From: a virus
Direction: 5' to 3' (one strand)
Virus record (IMG/VR): IMGVR_UViG_3300017759_000025
Span: 1-34,815 of that record
Length of the DNA stretch: 34,815 bases
The position numbers and the translations under genes were made by a program. The notes under the pieces are model-generated. The model saw only the letters and a list, made by a program, of their open reading frames with translations, searched no databases and was not told the origin of the DNA. Below, one piece after another: positions 10,353-33,737 of this stretch. Position 1 is the stretch's first letter, and every line of letters begins with the position of its first letter.

Positions 10353-11069
10353 ATGGTTGAACCTGCTGGTACTGCTTTAGTTGGTGTTGCAGTATGGGGG
10401 CAGAATTTATACAATTCTTGGAGGCCACGAAAAGTAGGAATATATGGTGCGGCTATGGTTGGTAAAACTACACTTGACCGTTATATGACTACGCCCGGTG
10501 AAATGGAAGAGATACCCGATGAGGAAAGAACAGGTCACATGAGATTACTTGGAAAATATCTTTTACCTAAACCCACAAGGAAGCGTATATCTTGGAAAGG
10601 AGATAGAAGAGTAGTATATTCTGCTGATTTAGGCGGCCAAGAAAGATTTTGGTCTTTGTGGATAGATGATATGGTTGCTAGACAGGTGGAAGTTGTGGTG
10701 TATATGTTTGATGAAAGAGCATTCAAAGGTGGGGATGAGGCATTACAACAAATTGCGGGATTCAAATACTTAGTTGATTGTATAATAAACAGACAATATA
10801 GGTATCGTACATTAAAAAGTAGATGGAAGGGTAAAAAATATACACCAAGACTTATTATGTTAGTTGCTAATAAAGCAGATAGATTCTTTGATGATACTGC
10901 CGCTATGCTTTGGCAACAGAACAGAATAGGAGAACATAAAGTGTTTGACCCGTTTAGAGATGATTTAGTTAGATTACAAAAAGCCGGAGTACCGTCAAGA
11001 AGGTCATTCATGGCTACAAGAATAGGGTGGAATGTAGAAACCACATTAATAGATTTACTTTCTACATAG
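10353..11069 (+). CDS. Arf/Ras-like small GTPase
   Basis: This 238-residue protein has the complete small-GTPase motif set: P-loop GAAMVGKT with G32, G37, K38 and T39; the switch II motif DLGGQERFW at 92-100, which resembles the Arf/Sar DxGGQ rather than the Ras DTAGQ; and NKAD at 173-176 for guanine specificity. Basic inserts occur around residues 68-82 and 145-158. The first 25 residues are mildly hydrophobic and could sit at a membrane, like the N-terminal helix of Arf proteins. GTP binding and hydrolysis are expected. The start follows GGTGATTAA directly. It sits in one operon with two small membrane proteins and an AbrB regulator. Small GTPases are unusual in viruses; host-membrane or assembly control is a guess. 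Confidence 0.85.
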   Translation: MVEPAGTALVGVAVWGQNLYNSWRPRKVGIYGAAMVGKTTLDRYMTTPGEMEEIPDEERTGHMRLLGKYLLPKPTRKRISWKGDRRVVYSADLGGQERFWSLWIDDMVARQVEVVVYMFDERAFKGGDEALQQIAGFKYLVDCIINRQYRYRTLKSRWKGKKYTPRLIMLVANKADRFFDDTAAMLWQQNRIGEHKVFDPFRDDLVRLQKAGVPSRRSFMATRIGWNVETTLIDLLST

Positions 11070-21036: not shown

Positions 21037-22062
21037 ATGACCAAAGTATTAATCCGCAAGAATTTGAACCGATGGTTCAAAGAAAAGTGGGTTGATGTTA
21101 GTCGTAAAGACAAGGATGGTAAACATCCACCGTGTGGTAGGTCAAAAGCCAAAAAAGGTAGTAAAGGTTATCCAAAGTGTAGACCGAGTGTAAAAGTTTC
21201 AAGTAAAACTCCAAAAACTTCCGGCTCAATGTCCGAAGGACAAAAGCGAGCCGCTACAAAAAGAAAGCGAGCCAAAAAACAAGGAGTTGGTGGTAAGCCT
21301 ACAATTGTAAAAGAAGATTTCATCAATGACCCTATGAGTGATTTTAACATGATGATGGCTTTAGAAGATGAGGCGTATAAATTGGCTGAATTAAATATGC
21401 CTTACTCTCGTCAAATATATCCAAATCGTGATGAATATGAAGATGCTTTAGAAATAGAAGGAGAATATCAACTCATGCAGATGATGACTAATCCTAAGTA
21501 TGCACCTTTAAGAGAAAGATATATGCAAAGTATTCCAAAAATGACTGAAACAGATGGTTTTACTCAAGATTTTATTGATACTTACAAAGGCAATCCAATA
21601 GAAATCGCATTTAGATTATTAAAAGCACCACGCATTCCTCGTAAGAAAGGGCAACCTGCGGGTTCAAAGAAGCACTCCGACTTGTATACTGATGAAAATC
21701 CAAAAGGAACTATACATAATTTAGGATTTAAAAATCCACAAAAAGCAAAACAGTCAGTTAGTAAAATCAAAAACAGTAGTAGAACTCATGCTCATAAAAC
21801 TCAAGCGGCTATAGCCATGGAACAAAGAGCAAGAGAAATGGGTAAAAAGCAAGAAGCAGGTATATATCGTAGATTCATAGAGCAACAGAAAAAGAAAACA
21901 AAGGAGATGAAGAAAATGAAAGATGATGATAAAAAGAAAAAGAAAGGCATGGTAGTAGTAATTGCAGTTGGGGGTAAACCTCCAAAAGCACCTACTAAGA
22001 CTATGGATGCTGATGATAAGAAAAAAGCATTCAATGACGCTTGGAATACATTAAATAGATAG
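21037..22062 (+). CDS. Basic protein: N-terminal marine-virus module, AWxLLK motifs and Lys-rich tail
   Basis: This is a 341-residue protein starting at the ATG after GGTGAGTAG. The N-terminus MTKVLIRKN is the shared start motif. Residues 12-90 are a basic Cys/Gly/Lys module (KWVDVSRKDKDGKHPPCG, KGYPKCRPS, then QKRAATKRKRAKK) that I recall from many marine virus proteins. Residues 185-198 (GNPIEIAFRLLKAP) are a clear cluster motif, and the last residues (FNDAWNTLNR) a second weaker one. Residues 270-310 are Lys/Met-rich. The architecture of tag, basic module and motif repeats what is seen at 1567 and 7270. Confidence 0.75.
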   Translation: MTKVLIRKNLNRWFKEKWVDVSRKDKDGKHPPCGRSKAKKGSKGYPKCRPSVKVSSKTPKTSGSMSEGQKRAATKRKRAKKQGVGGKPTIVKEDFINDPMSDFNMMMALEDEAYKLAELNMPYSRQIYPNRDEYEDALEIEGEYQLMQMMTNPKYAPLRERYMQSIPKMTETDGFTQDFIDTYKGNPIEIAFRLLKAPRIPRKKGQPAGSKKHSDLYTDENPKGTIHNLGFKNPQKAKQSVSKIKNSSRTHAHKTQAAIAMEQRAREMGKKQEAGIYRRFIEQQKKKTKEMKKMKDDDKKKKKGMVVVIAVGGKPPKAPTKTMDADDKKKAFNDAWNTLNR

Positions 22063-22080
22063 GACAATTAGGTGGTCAAT

Positions 22081-23379
22081 ATGTGGGGTAGTGCTTTACT
22101 CGGTGACGAGTATGATTTAAGCGTATACCCTGCTGATGATTTAACTAAAAGTGTTATATCAAATTTATCTCAACATCCTAATTTTATAATTAATAAAGCA
22201 CCTATACAAAAAACTTCGAGTTTATTTTCTAATGATAATATTAAGTCTTATAGTTTTGCACCTAATGGTGATGGATGGTTAGAAAGTACATACGGCAAAG
22301 ATGCTAATTCTATAATTCGTATGTGTAGAAAAATGCGTAGATTAGATAAAAATAATCGTGAAAGTATTGATTCTATAATTGATGATGTTCGTACAATAAA
22401 ATCTATGGAAATAGAAGCCACTATAGGTAATCTTTCATGGAGTGAAGGTTTAGAAGATGTAATAAAAAACATAGGACTCAATGATAGAAATCTTAAGGCT
22501 TTACGCAAATTTGGTGAAACACGCTCACTATCTTTACAAAAAGCGTGTCAATTATATCTTAAATCTATGACTGTTCTAAATATTCTAAATGATAATATTG
22601 ATTGGGGTATGGATGAACAAAAAGAATGGGCTAACGCTTTACAACTAAAAAAAGATGCTCGCAAGATGTGGTCTAACACATTACATCAAATAGATTCACT
22701 TACAAAAACCGATAAGCAAACTCTTAATTTTATTTCGGAAGAGTTGACAAAATCCGGTCCACTTAGTAGTCGAGAGTTAGTTCGTAGAGGTGTTGGTATT
22801 ATCTCTAAATCTGTTACTCCAACAAAAGTAGGAATGTTACTCAAAATGTATGGTGAAGAAGTAGATATTTACAAAAGTAGCAGTAGAGGTGATTTTGTTA
22901 AATTAGATACTCATGGTTTAATCATAAAAGATATATGGGCTTATGCGGCAGGTTTTCTTGATGCTGACGGAAGTATATTTATCACTGAAAGAGGTGAACC
23001 AAGAGCCACTTTTATCGCTACTGGTGATAGAGGTCGTTTACAATGTGAAGAATTACATAAAGCGATAGGATGTGGTCGTTTAGTATTAAATCAAAGAATT
23101 CATAAAAAGAGTGTAAGAAGTCAACACCGGCTTATATTCTCATCAAAAGATGATTTAAGACAATTGTTAAAAGGTATTTTACCTCATTTAAAAATGAAAT
23201 CGTTGCAAGCAAAGGCTGTTTTATCCTTTGTAGATGAAAAAGACAAAATGAGAAAGAATGAATTATATCGTTTAGTTACATATAACAATTGGAAAGACGA
23301 TAAGAAAAAAGCCGATAGTTTCTTGAGTAAATGGAACTTGGATGTAGATACAATAGGTAGTTATGCGGAGAGTTTGTAA
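22081..23379 (+). CDS. LAGLIDADG homing endonuclease with long N-terminal part
   Basis: This is a 432-residue protein. The last third is a LAGLIDADG-type nuclease: YAAGFLDADGSIFI (residues about 288-301) holds the signature with the acidic active-site residues, followed by the saddle strands and HLKMKSLQAKAVLSFVDEKD. One LAGLIDADG copy is clear, so it should act as a dimer unless a hidden second copy lies further on. The first 210 residues are helical and unknown; residues about 215-265 (SGPLSSRELVRRG and following) look like a winged-helix DNA-binding domain. The ATG follows GGTGGT by four bases. It is wedged between terminase and portal genes, a usual home for selfish endonucleases. Confidence 0.82.
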   Translation: MWGSALLGDEYDLSVYPADDLTKSVISNLSQHPNFIINKAPIQKTSSLFSNDNIKSYSFAPNGDGWLESTYGKDANSIIRMCRKMRRLDKNNRESIDSIIDDVRTIKSMEIEATIGNLSWSEGLEDVIKNIGLNDRNLKALRKFGETRSLSLQKACQLYLKSMTVLNILNDNIDWGMDEQKEWANALQLKKDARKMWSNTLHQIDSLTKTDKQTLNFISEELTKSGPLSSRELVRRGVGIISKSVTPTKVGMLLKMYGEEVDIYKSSSRGDFVKLDTHGLIIKDIWAYAAGFLDADGSIFITERGEPRATFIATGDRGRLQCEELHKAIGCGRLVLNQRIHKKSVRSQHRLIFSSKDDLRQLLKGILPHLKMKSLQAKAVLSFVDEKDKMRKNELYRLVTYNNWKDDKKKADSFLSKWNLDVDTIGSYAESL

Positions 23380-25169
23380 TGGCGGATGATGATAGTAGAA
23401 TAAGTCGGTTTCTTTCGACATTAAGTAAACCATTCAAGCGTAAGTCATCTCCTACACCTACTATGCCGCTTTGGACAAGTGGTATTCAAGAGCCTGTAAT
23501 GGCACAAGGAATTACAATACCTGCTCTATATGCTGTGAGTACAGAATGTTTAATTCTTAGAACAGTTCTTTCTAAACTTAGACAAGAGATGTTTAGAAGA
23601 GGATATTATTGGGAAAAGCGATTTCATAAGAAATGTACTCAATGTGATGAAGAGTTCAGTCATGATGTAGAAACTTGTGAAACATGTGGTGGTGAAGTTA
23701 GAGGACCGGAAACAGAAGAATTGGTTTATGCCAAATGGTTACTTAAACAAGAAAACAGTATGGAACAACAATTTTTACATATTTTACATGAGTTAGAAAA
23801 CGATTTAAATATTGTAGATGATGCATTCTTAATATTTGTAAAAGAGTATTATATTGACCCCGAAACTAAAGAAGTATCATTTTACCGTGTAAAAGAAATG
23901 ATTAGAGGTGACCCAATCTTTATGCGAATAGTTGCAGATAAAAGAGGGGTTAGAGGTGGTCGTTACAAAACCTGCTTAATCCACCGTGACCAAGTTAAGA
24001 CACATGCCGAGGATGACAAGTGCGAGATATGTGGTAGCGATTTACACGATGTACATTATGTTAATATGGCAGGTAGTGGTAAAACACAATACTTTGTTGA
24101 AGGTGAAGTTTTACATTTAAGTAAATATAACCCATCTAAATTATATGGCCGTTCACCGGTAAACACAATGTGGCGGCAAGCCATGACTCTAACAGCGATG
24201 GATAACTACATGTATACTGCATACCAAAAGCGTAGAATGCCAAAAGGTATTATTTCTGTTACTACTGATAATCTTGAGTCAATGAAATCGTTTTGGAAAT
24301 CTGTAGATGAAAAAATGGAAAGGGACCCACATTATGTACCTAAAGTTGGTATAGAATCTAGCACAGGTAGAGGTGGTGTAAATTGGGTCAAGTTTATGGA
24401 TACGCTTGAAGAAATGCAATATATTGCTGTTCGTGATGAAATAAGAAATAGAATAGCCGCATATTTTGGTGTATCAAGTATTTTTATGGTAGACAATGGT
24501 AAGTCCGGTGGTCTTAACAATGAAGGTCTACAGATTCTTGTTACCAATCGAGCAGTAGAGTTTGGACAAAAAATCTATACTGATGTATTATTCCCTAAGA
24601 TTCTAAAGCAAATGGGAGTGTTTGATTGGAAATTAACTCTTTATCCAAATGAAGAAGAAGACGAAATTACAAGACTACGCCGAGATGAGCAAGAGTTGAA
24701 TGTAGCGCAAAGAATGGCTCAACTAGGATTTGTACCGGAATTAGTTAATGGTGATACTAGTAATGATATTAAATTTGTTTATCGTAAACCTAAACCCGAA
24801 GAACAACAACAAGGCGCACCATCTCCGGGTGGCGCACCACCAATGATGCCTCCGGGTGGAGGAAGAATGCCTCCGGGTATGATGGGTGGAATGCCTCCGG
24901 GTATGATGGGTGGAATGCCTCCGGGTGGCGCACCAATGATGCGAGGAATGCCTCCGGGTATGCCACAAGGTAATATGCCAATGCCGCCTCCACAACCCGG
25001 CGGTCAAGGTGTAGGAATACGCAACCGTGGTCCTGCCGCACCCGAAAGAAGAACCTCACCGGGTAGTGGCGCACCTGTAACTAGTGTACAACAAAGAGGG
25101 CCACCACCATCCCTTGGACAACAGAATGTAAACACTATGCAAAATGCACGAAGATTTAGAGGGGCATAA
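23379..25169 (+). CDS. Portal protein with inserted zinc-binding Cys sets
   Basis: This is a 596-residue portal, the dodecameric ring through which DNA enters the head. Typical portal traits are the YNPSKLYGRSPVNTMW region (about 247-262), the TAMDNYMYTAYQKRR helix, FGVSSIFMVDNGKSGGLNNE (about 365-385) and EFGQKIYTDVLFPKIL. Unusual are two Cys sets: C86, C89, C100, C103 and C199, H202, C215, C218, which look like zinc ribbons. The C-terminal 120 residues are Pro/Gly/Met-rich with PPGMMGGM repeats, presumably disordered. The ATG shares its A with the previous stop. The portal label rests on motif memory and on its place between terminase and protease. Confidence 0.82.
   Translation: MADDDSRISRFLSTLSKPFKRKSSPTPTMPLWTSGIQEPVMAQGITIPALYAVSTECLILRTVLSKLRQEMFRRGYYWEKRFHKKCTQCDEEFSHDVETCETCGGEVRGPETEELVYAKWLLKQENSMEQQFLHILHELENDLNIVDDAFLIFVKEYYIDPETKEVSFYRVKEMIRGDPIFMRIVADKRGVRGGRYKTCLIHRDQVKTHAEDDKCEICGSDLHDVHYVNMAGSGKTQYFVEGEVLHLSKYNPSKLYGRSPVNTMWRQAMTLTAMDNYMYTAYQKRRMPKGIISVTTDNLESMKSFWKSVDEKMERDPHYVPKVGIESSTGRGGVNWVKFMDTLEEMQYIAVRDEIRNRIAAYFGVSSIFMVDNGKSGGLNNEGLQILVTNRAVEFGQKIYTDVLFPKILKQMGVFDWKLTLYPNEEEDEITRLRRDEQELNVAQRMAQLGFVPELVNGDTSNDIKFVYRKPKPEEQQQGAPSPGGAPPMMPPGGGRMPPGMMGGMPPGMMGGMPPGGAPMMRGMPPGMPQGNMPMPPPQPGGQGVGIRNRGPAAPERRTSPGSGAPVTSVQQRGPPPSLGQQNVNTMQNARRFRGA
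24867..24930 (+). repeat. Tandem 24-bp repeat in the portal tail
   Basis: A 24-base unit coding for MPPGMMGG is present twice without change (24867-24890 and 24891-24914), and a third, partial unit begins at 24915. It lies in the disordered Pro/Gly/Met tail and gives rise to spurious His/Arg-rich reading frames on the other strand. Confidence 0.8.
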
Positions 25170-25574: not shown

Positions 25575-25913
25575 ATGACAGAAGATAACTCCGAGCGTTT
25601 AGTAAACGCTTTGATTACTAAAATGGAAGTTATGGATAATAGTATAGAATTACTAAAGCAAGAAAATCAGCGTTTGAAGAATTTACTTAATAATCCTCAA
25701 ACATTACTAAGAAAAATGGGTATGGTAAAAACTACCACACCTTTTACCGAGGATGTACAAAATGACCCATTTAGAAATGACCTTAACGATAATAGTATTC
25801 TAAAAGGAGAAAACTCATTTATTCCACAAACTAATGAAGAATTCCATAATATGGATTGGGATGAAATTCATGAGTTAGCAAATAAATCTAAAGAAAAAGA
25901 GATGATTCAATGA
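25575..25913 (+). CDS. Coiled-coil protein sharing the C-terminal motif of the protease-scaffold protein
   Basis: This is a 112-residue protein. Residues 5-45 are a likely coiled coil (RLVNALITKMEVMDNSIELL and onward). Residues about 90-105 (EEFHNMDWDEIHELANKSKE) match the C-terminus of the S78 protease-scaffold protein at 33680-33737 (DLNNMSWDEVHTLAN): 9 of the 14 residues from Asn-Met to Ala-Asn are identical or conservative. This suggests that both bind the same partner, most simply the capsid shell. The ATG follows GAGGTCTTAAA. It overlaps the next gene by four bases. Confidence 0.72.
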   Translation: MTEDNSERLVNALITKMEVMDNSIELLKQENQRLKNLLNNPQTLLRKMGMVKTTTPFTEDVQNDPFRNDLNDNSILKGENSFIPQTNEEFHNMDWDEIHELANKSKEKEMIQ

Positions 25914-26685: not shown

Positions 26686-29600
26686 ATGCTACAAGATTTC
26701 TACATTCGTAAAAATGATTTTGTTATTTCACTTTACGATGGTTTAGATTTATCTCGAACTGCCGCAGAATATATCATGGCGTGGGAGTCTTTAGAAAAAG
26801 CCCCTAAAGATTTATTTTCTTTAAATCTTAAAGATACTGCTGAAACAATAATTAAATTTGATAAAAAAGAAGGTGCAGGATATTTATTAGCATCTAAACC
26901 TACTTTTGGTGAACCAACAAATCATGTTTGGGCTGACGGTATGATTCGTAGAGAGGGTAGAGGTCACTCAATATTTCCAACTTATAGGGCAGATGCTAAG
27001 TCATCTTACACTGATTCTCATTTTCCATATCACGAAATGAACCATCCATTAAGACAAATAAATCACGCAACAGGTTTACCCAATATGTTAGAGGTACTTA
27101 GGTCGTTTGCACTAGGCGGTGCAAGTACTCAAGAAATGGAGATGGAGAAAAAGTGGTATAAGATTATGACGGAAAAAAATAGTCCTTTAGTTACTGGTTT
27201 CAAAAGCGGTTCAACTACTATACCTATACTTGGGGATATTAATACACCGGGAACTGTAGCACAACATCAACATCATTTATATGAAAGGGACTATAGAAGA
27301 TGGAAGAAGGGAAATGCTGATTTAGAAACAGAACTCCAAAGTAAAGGATTGAAAGGTAAAGAATTAGAAAGTGAGTTACGCCATAGCCACTTTGATGATA
27401 AAGTCAAAGAGTGGACAAGTGAAGAAGGAGAGTTAGGTTTAGATGGTTTTATGTATGGACTCGAATGGTTTACACCGGAAGAAAGAGATTCTGTTGAAGA
27501 ACAGTTACACGAAGGTATAGATAATAAATCAACACTTACATTACCCAACGGTGAGAAAATACCTACTGCTAGACTAGCAGTAAATAATTTACTTAGAAGA
27601 ACACCCGAAATGAATTTTATGCTTAGGTCAAATCAAAATTTTGGTCGTAACGCTCATTATCGAAATCAGTCTAATGAAGATGATTACTCACAAGGTGAAA
27701 ATAGATTTATCCGTAGTGCTTTAGGTGAATCAGTTCATAATCAAAATGATTTGTTAGATTACCCTATTGCTGACTATATATTAAGTGAAATTAATGAAAA
27801 ATACGCTGTTGATGATAAAAAACCATTACAGGTTTTACCATCACTTGGAATCCATAAAACAAAACCTAAAGATAAATATACTTATCAAGACCTACAAAGA
27901 GCATCTAAACACAAAAGACTCTCTATGGAAGATTTACTTTTCTTAGCAGGATTTGACCCTAATACTAAACAATTAATTGAGAATCATCCTATACATGGTA
28001 AAATGGATGGACCAATTATTGATTTACCAACGCTAGAAAAAACACAAGAATACGCACAACGCAACGGAACAGTTCAACAGTTAGCAAAAGAAATGGTAAA
28101 CGATTTAGCATTTTTAAAATCTCCACATGGTCCTCATCCCGATGAAGAAAAACAAGAGTTTTGGGAAACAGACCCGGATGGATATACATACGGTCCGGGT
28201 AAATTTTACTCTTCATTATACAATAATATGCCCGGAATGAATGTATCACCTGCTACATGGATTGACTTTTTGCACTCTATGTCGCATAACAAAGATGACT
28301 CTATCATGTTCCAAACAGACCCTACTAATAACCAATTTTGGATGCCAAACCAAGAAAACACTATTTTAGGAATGCACTTTAGTCCACTCTTTTCACAAGA
28401 AATAGGTAGTTTTGATACTAACAAAATGAATTTTTCTTTTACCCACGAAAAAATGCCTTTACAAAACATATTCTCACCATTCGGAACAAGTAAAAAAAGT
28501 AGTTTGAGTGAAAAAAATAACTATACTGAACATAAATCTGCAATTAATCCTATGTATGAATATGCCATGAGAACAGCATCTCCTGCATTTAAACGACAAT
28601 TAGATTCATTCAATCAACACTTATCACCACACACATCAAGCAATCCTACATTTGCTCAAAGACCGGAATCTATGTATGGTAGTAGTCCTAGTGATAGTAG
28701 ATTACATGAAAGAGCGGTTAAAGCACAATTACATAATACATTTTTGAATAGAGTAGGCCATCCATTTACTCCACCAAAAAAAGCCATAGGACAACTTAAA
28801 GATTTTTTAACAGGAGATTTAACACTATCAGCAGGTCTTGACCTTCAAGAATTCAAAGATTATGTAGGGTGGGATTCAAAATCTAACACTTATAGTAGTG
28901 TTAAAGATATTATAGAAACAGGTGACTTTCCAATAGTTAGATTAGTAAATTCCATTAGTAAGATACTCAACACAACAGATGGTAGAAAGATTAACGACTT
29001 CATGGAAAGTTTATCTGTTGATAAAAATAATGAAAACTATAAACAATTACATGATTATTATATGGATAATTTTGATTTTAATGTTAATGATAAAATAAAT
29101 TTAAATGATGCTAATAGTGGATTACAAAGTATAACATCTAAATTCCATCAAAGAAAATTAGATAATAAGAAAAGTAGAAGTTATAAACCTAAAACAAATC
29201 CTAGTGAAGTTATACAATCTATTCTAAGATTTGGTGGTAGTTCTATTTCTACTGAAAAAGAAAATAGGATTAGAGAAACCATTGACTCAATAAATGAAAT
29301 GATGATGAATCCCGATTTGTCACAAGAACAAGTGATGGGTTTAAGAGAAGATTTACAAGATGCTGTAACTCAATTAAATAGAGTTCAACAATCAACAAAA
29401 CAAAAAGACAAACCTAGTTCTCATTGGAAAATTAATGCTAAACAATATTTAGATATGTTACAATCCCATCATGATACAATAGTAGATTATGCTAAAAATG
29501 TAATGATACCATTAGTTATTGAACAACAACCCGATGCTTTCGACCCTAGTAACCCTGTGCAGTTTATACATAATGTACAAAAGTTATTGGCTGATACCCA

Positions 29601-32259
29601 AAAGCATATTTTAGCAACCGACAATCATGACTTGTCACCTGTAACTTATGGAATAGATTACAATGTAGTTAATCAAAAACCTAAAAAAGTAAACGAACAT
29701 AAGTCTATTGCTAATTACTTGTTAAATAATGGTGCAGAAATAGATGGTAATATGTCTATTGATGAAGTAATTAATAAATTAAATTTAGAAAAAACTCCAT
29801 CCATGAAAGAGCATATCGCTAATATTATTAACGAATCTTCTATGAGGCAACAACCTTTATTCGTTTCTACAGTAGGAAATTTACTTACAAGTGGTGCTTT
29901 ATCAAAAATAGGAAATACCGATATATCTCATTTACATACTTCTAATGATGAAATCATGGGTACTAAATATGATGAATTAAACAGTAATGATAAATTTCAT
30001 CATGATTTACATAATTCAAATTTACATAACGCAATAGGTATTGCACAAAAAAGAGCAAGAAAAGAAAATGAAAATTGGAAAGCAAATCCAATACACTCTT
30101 TATCTCAATCGTTAAACCATGTTCTTAGTACACAACATTTTGGTCAATCAATGCAAAATAGTGGATTAGAGTTTTTCCATGCTAGAGATTTTGATGCTCA
30201 TGGTGCAAAAGACATGGGTAAAGGAGTTAAGAAAATTACCGCTACTACTAGGAATAACTTGGACTCTTTAATTGTGTTAGATGAAAGAAAATTGATGGAT
30301 GATAGAGGTGATGTGTTAGACAGTGCATTTGAAGCACCTACAACCGAAACAGTTGCTAGAGCAGGTTTAGGTACACATTCTAAAATAGGTAAAGTAAATC
30401 CTACTAATGCATCTATGTATAATATATTTGGTGTAGGGGATATTCATGAAGGGTTTGTAGCAGAACCATCTTTTGGTATTGAAACTAATACACAGGGTGA
30501 ACCGATAGTTGGAGAGTATACTCAGCCGGGTTTTTATCCAAGAGTAAGTGAAGAAGCGTTGAATACATTGTTTGGAGAAGAAACTATACAACAAGTACTA
30601 CCAAATTTACCACCACCACAAAATACTCTTTCAGCACATCAAGGAGTAAATATGGATACTTACTTATCTCCATCGGATGACCCTTCAACAATCGCTATGA
30701 GTGAAGTTTCTACATATATCTCATCTCTACTAAATCCCGATGTATTATTGATGAAGAGTGACGATGTTAAATGGTCACCCCCCATTAGACCAATGCATCG
30801 TATTTTTGAGTTAAGTGATTTACATCATCTAAGAGGTTTTAGTGGTTCTTGGGTTGTAAGTAAATGGTATGATGGAAAAAGAGTTATCATAGTAAGTGAA
30901 GATGAAGTAATTACTACATACGATGAAAATGGTAAAAAAGTAGGATTGAAAAAATCATTTAAAGAAAATCTTTCAAAGTTAAATAAAAGAGATTATGTTA
31001 TAGATGGTATTTTAGGTGAAGAAGAATTAAACATAATAGATATTCTAAATTATGATGCTAACAATGTAAGTGATATGACCATGTTTGAAAGAATGAAATT
31101 ATTGAGAAGTCAATTTGATAGTCATGAAAATATAATTATTCCGGGTCCACATGATACTAAAATGACAGACGAAGAAGGTTTAGATGAAACAGTTTCTAAT
31201 TTACAAGAGGAACATGAAATAATTTTACTAAGAGATGGTAAATCTACATACATGAAAGGTGAAAGACGACACCCGAAATGGATGCTACTTAGGAATACTA
31301 AAGACTACAACTTCATAGTTTTAGATGTTAAAGGTAATAATTCACATACTTATAGATTAGGTGCAGGACCAATATTAGACGGTTCAAAACTAGGTAATAG
31401 AGCAGTAGAAGTAAATGGACAAGAGTACATGGACATAGGAACAATACATAATCAAACAGATTCATACAAAGTGGGAGATGTAGTTAGAGTATCTATTACA
31501 GGAGTAACTAAAAAAACTCGTGGTGGAAGAAATGTCTTCAATGTACAGATGAAGCAAATAACTGGTAAAGGTGATGGTGAAGGTGCGGCTAGTGCTGAAT
31601 CTTTAGATATACTTACTAAATCTTTGAGTCCTATTTTAGTTCCACACGATATAGAGTATGATAATAATAAATTAAAAGTTATACTAAAAGATATAGATAC
31701 TGTAGAATATGATGTTGTGGAATACGGTAACCTATGGTATTTGGAAAGTCCTTCTACTGCATTGAGTGGTATGCTAAAGTCAAATTATCCTATTACATTA
31801 GCAGAAAGTATGTACCCATATTGGGGTGCCGTAGCACCACTTATGTTTAATGGTCATTTAGTAAAAAGAGATGTGTTAGATGAAAAACCCCCAAGTCGTA
31901 AACGCCAAGATAAACAATCAGCAGGTATTTTAGATGCAGATGATGATAACCGGTTACTCAAACCAACTACTAAGAAAGCATTAGAAATAATATCTCGTGC
32001 TTTAGACCAACTTTCTAAAGAAAAAATGACATGGACAGGACCAAAAGGGCTTGGTATAGATATGGCTACACCTATAGAATCACCAAGTGGTCCGACTCGT
32101 TTGGCTAACGAAGAAACTATGCCGGATTATGATGGTAGAAAGCGTAGTGACGAAAAAGAAATTGAGCCTAAAAGTAATCATAAAGGAAAAAAACCCATTA
32201 AACACATAGATGTTAAACAAAATACTTCGCAGTTGTCCGATTTTAATAAAGTAGGTTGA
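26686..32259 (+). CDS. Giant 1857-residue protein with degenerate DNA-ligase-like domain
   Basis: The largest gene of the window lies between portal and protease genes, with GGTGA before the ATG. Residues 1-1370 are hydrophilic (Asn, Lys, Gln, His), mostly helical, without a domain I know; the start has FYIRKND (cf. other N-termini) and EYIMAWESLEKAP (about 28-40), a weak cluster motif. Residues about 1375-1620 follow ATP-dependent DNA ligases in order: SKWYDGKRVIIV (K1393, D1396, G1397; motif I, usually KxDG), YVIDGIL (D1440; motif III), LNIIDILNYDA then FERMKLLRSQ, HEIILLRD (motif IV), KWMLLRN (W1532; motif V), then an OB-fold-like segment (YKVGDVVRVSITGV). The key Lys is shifted by one, and motifs IV and V have lost Gly and Lys, so catalysis is doubtful. 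A head-internal or DNA-end binding role is inference. Confidence 0.8.
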   Translation: MLQDFYIRKNDFVISLYDGLDLSRTAAEYIMAWESLEKAPKDLFSLNLKDTAETIIKFDKKEGAGYLLASKPTFGEPTNHVWADGMIRREGRGHSIFPTYRADAKSSYTDSHFPYHEMNHPLRQINHATGLPNMLEVLRSFALGGASTQEMEMEKKWYKIMTEKNSPLVTGFKSGSTTIPILGDINTPGTVAQHQHHLYERDYRRWKKGNADLETELQSKGLKGKELESELRHSHFDDKVKEWTSEEGELGLDGFMYGLEWFTPEERDSVEEQLHEGIDNKSTLTLPNGEKIPTARLAVNNLLRRTPEMNFMLRSNQNFGRNAHYRNQSNEDDYSQGENRFIRSALGESVHNQNDLLDYPIADYILSEINEKYAVDDKKPLQVLPSLGIHKTKPKDKYTYQDLQRASKHKRLSMEDLLFLAGFDPNTKQLIENHPIHGKMDGPIIDLPTLEKTQEYAQRNGTVQQLAKEMVNDLAFLKSPHGPHPDEEKQEFWETDPDGYTYGPGKFYSSLYNNMPGMNVSPATWIDFLHSMSHNKDDSIMFQTDPTNNQFWMPNQENTILGMHFSPLFSQEIGSFDTNKMNFSFTHEKMPLQNIFSPFGTSKKSSLSEKNNYTEHKSAINPMYEYAMRTASPAFKRQLDSFNQHLSPHTSSNPTFAQRPESMYGSSPSDSRLHERAVKAQLHNTFLNRVGHPFTPPKKAIGQLKDFLTGDLTLSAGLDLQEFKDYVGWDSKSNTYSSVKDIIETGDFPIVRLVNSISKILNTTDGRKINDFMESLSVDKNNENYKQLHDYYMDNFDFNVNDKINLNDANSGLQSITSKFHQRKLDNKKSRSYKPKTNPSEVIQSILRFGGSSISTEKENRIRETIDSINEMMMNPDLSQEQVMGLREDLQDAVTQLNRVQQSTKQKDKPSSHWKINAKQYLDMLQSHHDTIVDYAKNVMIPLVIEQQPDAFDPSNPVQFIHNVQKLLADTQKHILATDNHDLSPVTYGIDYNVVNQKPKKVNEHKSIANYLLNNGAEIDGNMSIDEVINKLNLEKTPSMKEHIANIINESSMRQQPLFVSTVGNLLTSGALSKIGNTDISHLHTSNDEIMGTKYDELNSNDKFHHDLHNSNLHNAIGIAQKRARKENENWKANPIHSLSQSLNHVLSTQHFGQSMQNSGLEFFHARDFDAHGAKDMGKGVKKITATTRNNLDSLIVLDERKLMDDRGDVLDSAFEAPTTETVARAGLGTHSKIGKVNPTNASMYNIFGVGDIHEGFVAEPSFGIETNTQGEPIVGEYTQPGFYPRVSEEALNTLFGEETIQQVLPNLPPPQNTLSAHQGVNMDTYLSPSDDPSTIAMSEVSTYISSLLNPDVLLMKSDDVKWSPPIRPMHRIFELSDLHHLRGFSGSWVVSKWYDGKRVIIVSEDEVITTYDENGKKVGLKKSFKENLSKLNKRDYVIDGILGEEELNIIDILNYDANNVSDMTMFERMKLLRSQFDSHENIIIPGPHDTKMTDEEGLDETVSNLQEEHEIILLRDGKSTYMKGERRHPKWMLLRNTKDYNFIVLDVKGNNSHTYRLGAGPILDGSKLGNRAVEVNGQEYMDIGTIHNQTDSYKVGDVVRVSITGVTKKTRGGRNVFNVQMKQITGKGDGEGAASAESLDILTKSLSPILVPHDIEYDNNKLKVILKDIDTVEYDVVEYGNLWYLESPSTALSGMLKSNYPITLAESMYPYWGAVAPLMFNGHLVKRDVLDEKPPSRKRQDKQSAGILDADDDNRLLKPTTKKALEIISRALDQLSKEKMTWTGPKGLGIDMATPIESPSGPTRLANEETMPDYDGRKRSDEKEIEPKSNHKGKKPIKHIDVKQNTSQLSDFNKVG

Positions 32260-32318
32260 TTTCTTTAACACATAAAGTATCAGTTTACTATAAGTAGGAT
32301 GACAGTAAGTTGTGTAAA
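32260..32318 (+). promoter_or_regulatory. Possible promoter of the protease and capsid genes
   Basis: TTTACTATAA at 32284-32293 lies about 30 bases before the ATG at 32319, the distance of an archaeal TATA box with a very short leader. No strong ribosome binding site is present, which fits leaderless or near-leaderless translation. This is the only sizeable gap between portal and major capsid genes. Confidence 0.35.
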
Positions 32319-33737
32319 ATGATGCTAACCTTACAGCGACCATCCACAGGGCTATCTGTCCTAAAGAGTGGTAGCGATTTGATTGTAGCGGGATACGCAT
32401 CTGTAGAACTTGTTGATAAGCAAGGAGATTTAATTACTCGTGGTGCATTAAAGAATGCATTTGATGGTTTTATGAAGAGTGACAAGTACCGAAATGTACA
32501 ATTGGCTCATTCTAATATACAAGTTGGAGAAGTTATAGACAGTTATGTTGACTCCAACGGGAGAATGTGGAAGTCCGAAGTAGACGACACAGGAATGTTT
32601 GTAGTATGTAAACTACGAAACGACATAGAAAAGGCTCGTGAAGTAGCCGCAGAAATACGCAAGGGTAACTTGCAAGGATTTTCCATTGGTGGACAGGCTT
32701 TCAAGCGTGTTAGAAAGGCTGATGGAGAACATGGAGAATACCAAGAAATTAGTAAAATGGAACTCCACGAAATTACAATTTGCGAAAAAGGAATTAACCC
32801 GGAAGCGCAATTTAGAATTTTAAAAGAAGATGTGAGTAAAATGACAGATATAGACAATGACCTAAACGCAGTAATGAACAGGCTAGAAGCAAGACTTGAC
32901 GCTATGGAGAAAGGTGAAATTCCACCTCAACTCCGAGAGCATATCAAGGGTAAGAAAGATGATTCCGACGACAAGAAAGAAATGAAGGATGATAAGATGA
33001 AGGCCGAAGAAGAAAAGAAAGAAATGAAGGATAAGAAAGAAGACAAAGATGACAAAATGAATTACATGAAAGGTGATGAATACAGTGATGTTATCAGTGC
33101 TGAATATCTAAATTGGATGGAAGACACTCTTAAATCCGCAGGTGTAAACACCCTAGAAGCAAGACTTCACTTTGACCAAATGGAAAAAGCACAACTTGGT
33201 GGATTCGATAACCCGGATACAGTAGACGGTGCAGATTACTTCGGTGGACAAGTTAGAGGCCGAGGACAAACAGCAGGTAGCCCATCAACTGGTGCTATCA
33301 GTGCAATAACTCAAAGCGGTGGAAAACAACCGGCAGGTGCTATGGGACCGGCTGACCTTGCAAAATCCTACATTAATCCTAATGAAGTTTCAGCAAGTGA
33401 TATTGAAGCGGCTTATGAAGTTTACAAAGCGGCGGCTATGGAACAACAATTCCGTGGCAACCTAGAAGGACACTTCGCATCTCGCTTTAATGAAGAACAA
33501 GCAGTAGCAAAATCTCAAGCAGAAAAGGCTCAATTTGATGCTCGTGAACCAATTAGTGAAGTTATGAAGGCTCTTGAAGGACTATCCGAAAGAATTGATA
33601 ACCTAACCACAGAAGGAACAACAATTGCAAAATCTGTAAGTTCTAACAATGTAACAATCCCGTCTACTCAAGACCTAAACAACATGTCTTGGGATGAGGT
33701 ACATACACTAGCAAACAGTGTATACAGGAGTGCTTGA
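32319..33737 (+). CDS. S78-type prohead protease fused to a scaffold-like domain
   Basis: This is a 472-residue protein. Residues 1-165 match the HK97-type prohead protease (peptidase S78): VELVDKQGDLI, H64 in LAHSNIQ, S122 in LQGFSIGGQ and the conserved HEITI strand with E151. Residues 175-260 are extremely Lys/Glu/Asp-rich and helical; 270-472 are Ala/Gln/Glu-rich helices ending in MSWDEVHTLAN. The protease cleaves scaffold and capsid N-termini during head maturation; fusing scaffold behind it is known in tailed viruses. The last 15 residues are shared with the protein at 25575. The start could be ATG 32319 or 32322; an upstream TTG at 32310 is less likely. Confidence 0.88.
   Translation: MMLTLQRPSTGLSVLKSGSDLIVAGYASVELVDKQGDLITRGALKNAFDGFMKSDKYRNVQLAHSNIQVGEVIDSYVDSNGRMWKSEVDDTGMFVVCKLRNDIEKAREVAAEIRKGNLQGFSIGGQAFKRVRKADGEHGEYQEISKMELHEITICEKGINPEAQFRILKEDVSKMTDIDNDLNAVMNRLEARLDAMEKGEIPPQLREHIKGKKDDSDDKKEMKDDKMKAEEEKKEMKDKKEDKDDKMNYMKGDEYSDVISAEYLNWMEDTLKSAGVNTLEARLHFDQMEKAQLGGFDNPDTVDGADYFGGQVRGRGQTAGSPSTGAISAITQSGGKQPAGAMGPADLAKSYINPNEVSASDIEAAYEVYKAAAMEQQFRGNLEGHFASRFNEEQAVAKSQAEKAQFDAREPISEVMKALEGLSERIDNLTTEGTTIAKSVSSNNVTIPSTQDLNNMSWDEVHTLANSVYRSA

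Follow-up and report, generated by a model that had tools for sequence, protein, structure and literature searches.

Results

A ligase-like domain within a giant head-cluster protein

The window (i.e., the whole stretch of 34,815 bases analysed here; G+C content 37.6%) is an IMG/VR virus record. Between its portal gene and its S78 prohead protease gene sits a giant open reading frame (ORF), and the length, the flanks and the ligase elements described for its product in the initial annotation were all confirmed: every quoted motif lies at its given place, in order, and is followed by an OB-like stretch. The main features are as follows.

23379-25169, + strand: portal (Pfam E 1.3e-10, PHROG 1.7e-66)
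26686-32259, + strand: giant head-cluster ORF, 1857 aa (same architecture in relatives, 1785-2147 aa)
30703-31605, + strand: ligase-derived domain, residues about 1340-1640 (profile searches, Foldseek, conservation, dN/dS)
31306-31575, + strand: OB-like domain, residues about 1541-1630 (AF2 model, pLDDT mostly 75-88 here)
31936-32097, + strand: second conserved C-terminal block, residues 1751-1804 (conservation along the ORF)
32310-33737, + strand: prohead protease, S78 (9.1e-11)

The portal of the window is 28-29% identical to Haloarcula tailed virus portals, a close relative has an MCP with 33% identity to its counterpart in halovirus HCTV-5, and PolB is found in near-complete relatives. The window also contains an HMGL-like gene, which is listed as an aoguangvirid feature (PMC10768690). 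Because the portal and MCP are halovirus-related and the HMGL-like gene is present, these data, read together with the magrovirus literature, point to a magrovirus-type (Poseidoniales virus) contig, with the host assignment itself drawn from gene content and literature.

Several other genes of the window have features of their own. A 435-aa protein encoded between terminase and portal (22072-23379, + strand) has an HNH-endonuclease-like C-terminal part (PHROG 1.1e-7), and haloviruses likewise have an HNH gene at the equivalent place. Directly upstream of it, in the head cluster, lies a gene with a DUF5872 domain (21037-22062; Pfam 1.4e-9), and a DUF6321 domain is found at 1567-2175 (Pfam 9.7e-17). 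Residues 86-105 of the portal form a CxxC...CxxC zinc-ribbon-like stretch (Pfam DZR E 0.003). A 112-aa protein (25575-25913) and the protease both end in an IPxTxxxxxMxWDEVHxLA-like tail, which recurs in the protease of relatives and could be a scaffold- or capsid-targeting tail. Finally, a 238-aa protein (10353-11069, + strand) has the small-GTPase signatures GAAMVGKTT, DLGGQERFW and NKAD and matches Pfam Roc weakly (E 0.0059); if this gene does encode a GTPase of the Ras/Arf type, it would be unusual for an archaeal tailed virus.

The domain descends from ATP-dependent DNA ligases

Pfam, NCBIfam, PDB sequence and Foldseek comparisons agree on a ligase-type nucleotidyltransferase fold, and the profile and structure searches proposed in the initial annotation (carried out here as a PDB profile search and as AF2 modelling with Foldseek) returned ligases, not another fold. 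The Pfam family DNA_ligase_A_M is matched by the whole protein at E 5e-4 and by the domain at 1.6e-5; both profile halves match in order and together reach 27.5 bits versus a cut-off of 26.2, the single-sequence Pfam scores of the window's copy being near threshold. The same family is also matched by 20/20 full-length relatives and TIGR00574 by 48/49 domains, with 6.4e-9 as the best NCBIfam ligase match, and the PDB profile search retrieved the archaeal DNA ligase 4eq5 at E 1.2e-6. The m3G-cap-binding domain of snurportin (PF21974) is a further match for part of the N-half fragments (20/37 at E <= 0.1, best 6.8e-4); this similarity is weak and spans motifs I-III, and the window's copy falls below the Pfam cut-off. 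WD40 matches of the N-half profile were discarded as sums of weak repeat matches.

When the second of two AF2 models (mean pLDDT 62, pTM 0.39, much of the motif III-V region below 50; the earlier model, at pLDDT 45, was unusable) was compared with the PDB by Foldseek, the best 22 matches were all DNA ligases, and the order of strands and helices in the model agrees with the ligase profiles. The poor quality of the model keeps the Foldseek TM-scores low, its moderate-to-low confidence does not allow side-chain geometry to be judged, and the claim for the fold therefore rests mainly on the sequence profiles. The closest structural match in BFVD is A0A516LT18, an 827-aa viral protein (E 1.5e-14, 24% identity) that is possibly a shorter relative beyond the contigs examined. 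Superposition of the model on human LIG3 (10ye chain L) gave an aligned range that begins at 60<->420, with an rmsd of 1.8 over 68 residues; this is consistent with W1394 lying at the position of the catalytic LIG3 residue K421, the alignment ranges giving the ends only. Taken together, the comparisons show that the domain is a descendant of the nucleotidyltransferase and OB region of ATP-dependent DNA ligases.

The adenylation site is lost throughout the family

Residues were counted column by column over 173 aligned rows, made up of the window and its 172 unique relatives, with the register taken from PDB profile alignments. The sites in question are located in the window as follows.

30793-30807, + strand: MHRIF (1370-1374), a family signature just ahead of the domain core (H 172/173, R 172/173, I 173/173, F 172/173)
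30859-30894, + strand: motif I region SKWYDGKRVIIV (1392-1403), ungapped alignment to IKYDGARV of 4eq5/3rr5
30862-30864, + strand: K1393
30865-30867, + strand: W1394, at the ligase Lys site
30994-31014, + strand: beta-strand YVIDGIL (1437-1443), with I1442 for the ligase xDGE Glu (model topology, column counts)
31033-31059, + strand: motif III region IIDILNYDA (1450-1458), with I1451 for the ligase Phe/Tyr (alignment, column counts)
31084-31104, + strand: FERMKLL helix (1467-1473), R1469 in 170/170 non-gap rows
31213-31236, + strand: motif IV region HEIILLRD (1510-1517), Glu and Gly lost, Lys replaced by R1516 (alignment, column counts)
31237-31293, + strand: hairpin GKSTYMKGERRHPKWMLLR (1518-1536), conserved STYMxGExRHPKW, both motif V lysines replaced (HPKW in 166-167/167 non-gap rows)

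The degeneracy of the active site that had been noted in the window proved to extend over the aligned relatives, in which the motif I Lys and the motif V lysines are gone and the motif IV Glu is not conserved. The motif I Lys site is occupied by W (127 rows), Y (27), Q (6), H (6), I (5) or M (2) and never by Lys (0/173), and the Asp of KxDG varies (D105, E22, Q20, K9 and others). Site 1442, equated with the xDGE Glu from the model topology, is I (144) or V (24); site 1451, the motif III aromatic, is I112/V22/N11/L9/F7; and site 1511, the motif IV Glu, is variable. Of the two motif V lysine sites, the second of which lies in KWMLLRN (residues 1531-1537) together with the first, 1534 is L/V/M/I and 1536 is R/S/T/A and others, with no Lys among the residues listed. 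The initial annotation was right that motifs IV and V lack the usual Gly and Lys, with the qualification that the motif IV Lys aligns with R1516, which is R in 164/169 non-gap rows, so that a basic residue is retained at this site. No clear RxDK (motif VI) could be seen by eye in the OB-like region of the window.

The initial annotation had also read the usual KxDG as KxxDG. These letters are present, but the ligase Lys site aligns to W1394 without a gap, and KxxDG is therefore not a shifted KxDG. K1393 is invariant within the window's two clades; over the 173 rows its column holds K105, L19, I15, S12, H9, A7, V3, D1 and C1. A register shift with K1393 as the nucleophile was rejected because the residue is not conserved outside these two clades, and since it is no conserved substitute across relatives, K1393 is very unlikely to be the nucleophile. 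Relatives with intact motifs, which it had seemed worth looking for, were absent among the 172 unique domains. At the level of the aligned sequences, the residues for covalent adenylation are shown to be lost in every relative seen.

The domain is nearly universal and is the best-conserved part of the protein

Scans of viral contigs with domain peptides gave 132-134 relatives, and scans anchored on the MCP, with a halovirus and a distant marine lineage as starting points, gave many more; as the MCP anchor is independent of the domain, the latter provide an unbiased view. Of the 102 MCP-anchored loci whose sequence ahead of the MCP reaches 4.5 kb or more, 99 have the domain, and the ORF that bears it ends 1382-1522 bp before the MCP start. 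There is no detectable copy in the haloviruses or in L331, L332 and L388, cellular (bacterial/archaeal) genome contigs yielded no relative, and the phage records gave no match to the window protein or to a clade-B domain except one at chance level. The gene for the giant protein belongs to the core set of the magrovirus-type archaeal tailed viruses, which are abundant in the sea.

Conservation is 0.74-0.92 in the domain versus about 0.5 elsewhere in the giant protein, of which it is the best-conserved part, and dN/dS is 0.05-0.09 in the domain versus 0.12-0.25 in the N-terminal part, showing that purifying selection is stronger on the domain than on the rest of the protein. There is almost no variation in MHRIF, W1389, G1397, R1469, R1474, LLRD or the STYMxGExRHPKW hairpin, and the domain is retained even among relatives at only about 30% identity. 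One lineage, with an HKD/QKD-type motif I (12 unique sequences), has kept the nucleotidyltransferase core and is missing the OB fold through a clean deletion between the core and the C-terminal region (L361, L341, L357, L390, L333, L338 and relatives). It should be noted that 16 rows were scored as lacking the OB fold, of which the 12 with an IQKD/IHKD/VHRD/IQED motif were counted as true losses; the four that bear WVVSKWYD are apparently cut by contig ends and were left out. The conservation pattern and the loss of the OB fold fit a binding role, not a decaying relic or a nick-sealing enzyme.

The published magrovirus ligase

In a first set of 19 long records, of which 14 have a PolB gene, PF01068 matches nothing but the giant ORF; no second ligase (PF01068, NAD-dependent PF01653 or RNA ligase PF09414) was found in these records, which are not certified complete. 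A second set of 16 records includes four that encode PolB, and in 17/18 PolB-bearing records (again not certified complete) the degenerate domain is the sole ATP-ligase-like sequence. The exception, G026 (102 kb, from a distant lineage), has a degenerate OB-less domain and an additional 379-aa stand-alone ligase (L394:1222-2361) with intact motifs (RKFDGVR, DGELY, EGYEGAMVRN, LQKVK), a Pfam match of 2.6e-19 and an OB domain. The search thus detects true ligases, and the degenerate domain persists beside one.

According to published work, the replisome genes of magroviruses include one for an ATP-dependent DNA ligase (PMC12999244, PMC10768690), present in 'almost all the vOTUs' (PMC10160649), and reviews and ICTV profiles count it among the genes that give near-independence from the host replisome. 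Apparently, this published ligase is, in group A at least, the gene described here. The ligase resemblance itself is noted in earlier literature; the loss of the active site and the location in a giant head-cluster protein are apparently undiscussed in the searchable literature, as far as a non-exhaustive search goes. Because the only ATP-ligase-like sequence in the examined clades is a catalytically dead head-cluster domain, the inference of replisome independence needs correction for these clades. Their viruses probably rely on the host ligase, and what is called the viral 'DNA ligase' probably serves, in at least the group to which the window belongs, as a binding module and not as a replication enzyme.

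Discussion

We propose, with a probability of roughly 0.75, that the domain is a catalytically dead, ligase-derived binding module that would act in head building, filling or emptying. The giant late-cluster protein would be made together with the head genes, and its C-terminal 'pseudo-ligase' domain would bind, non-catalytically, while the head is built, filled or emptied; for the virion association of the protein, the pointer is gene position only. The partner that we favour, at somewhat less than even odds, is the double-stranded DNA of the virus, which the domain might contact close to the portal, at an end or a nick, during packaging or ejection; a capsid or portal protein would be the next candidate, with a lower likelihood. 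A bolder and rather doubtful version is that a DNA ligase has turned into a universal virion component of the magrovirus order, a dead ligase that would clamp DNA ends or nicks at the portal vertex. If true, such a clamp, acting in packaging or ejection, would be a kind of head protein not described before.

An unlikely alternative is that the giant protein enters the head and is injected along with the genome, as phage 'polyvalent proteins' are, with the pseudo-ligase possibly binding DNA ends or nicks or host repair factors in the newly infected cell and thereby shielding the genome from host nucleases or defence. A large multi-region protein between portal and protease occupies the usual site of packaged polyvalent/MuF proteins in portal-terminase phages (PMC5512222), and in the related haloviruses the genes that separate portal and MCP include those for an ADP-ribosyltransferase, a MuF protein and a zeta-toxin/ParB protein of 1293 aa. 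However, the remaining 1340 residues of the giant protein are without a recognisable effector domain (Pfam, PHROG), the same searches of 20 full-length relatives gave nothing beyond ligase and chance-level matches (i.e., no MuF or catalogued effector domain), there is no detectable similarity to the halovirus gp114, gp118 or gpF-like proteins, and near-universal presence with slow evolution is atypical of arms-race effectors.

That the domain takes part in viral replication, as published annotations imply, in the form of an active enzyme (ligase or nucleotidyltransferase) whose nucleophile would be non-canonical, be it K1393 or a different residue, is very improbable. Its standing as the only ATP-ligase-like sequence in nearly all PolB-bearing records and the invariance of K1393 in the window's two clades would suit such an enzyme, and other invariant residues (H1371, R1372, K1531) may mediate an unusual nucleotidyl transfer; against it stand the L, I, S, H, A, V, D or C that other lineages have in place of K1393, the loss of the motif Ia Glu, the motif III aromatic, the motif IV Glu and the motif V lysines, the absence of the OB fold in one lineage and the head-cluster location. 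The lost catalytic residues could be expected of a vestigial domain decaying after a recent fusion, an idea refuted by the finding that no other part of the protein is so well conserved or has so low a dN/dS, and that the domain is kept in relatives at about 30% identity. We give just as little credence to a chance resemblance with no nucleotidyltransferase fold behind it: single-sequence scores near threshold and low TM-scores would be compatible with one, but independent relatives all match ligases (PDB profile 1.2e-6, NCBIfam up to 6.4e-9), the profile halves come in order, and the top 22 Foldseek matches are ligases. A binding module derived from a ligase raises a new, testable question, namely for what reason the most conserved part of a core protein from the structural cluster should be a ligase fold without catalysis.

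Comparison with known systems

With the polyvalent/MuF proteins of portal-terminase phages (PMC5512222) the giant protein shares its large size, its multi-region make-up and a gene beside the portal, but no domain of that repertoire was detected in it, and these proteins are scarce in archaea according to the same survey (PMC5512222). The published magrovirus ligase is listed with the replisome (PMC12999244, PMC10768690, PMC10160649), whereas here we find a dead domain in the head cluster. As the initial annotation remarked, this is an abnormal setting for a ligase, embedded as the domain is in a giant head-cluster protein.

With archaeal ATP-dependent DNA ligases (PF01068; 4eq5, 3rr5), the domain shares the order of the motifs (RPMxxxx...YDGxRV, ELNxxDIL, ERxKxL, STYxxGxRxxKW); in the window, an OB-like domain follows them as in the ligases, but it is absent from one lineage of relatives. 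Unlike them, it has no catalytic Lys, motif Ia Glu, motif III Phe, motif IV Glu or motif V lysines, it lies inside a 1.8-2.1-kaa late protein, and no N-terminal ligase DNA-binding domain was recognised in that protein.

The m3G-cap-binding domain of snurportin-1 has the same fold and binds its ligand without catalysis. Snurportin-1 differs in being a eukaryotic nuclear import factor, and the ligase motif IV-V hairpin is present in the viral domain; by analogy, snurportin-1 may nevertheless serve as a precedent for a dead member of this fold that is used in binding.
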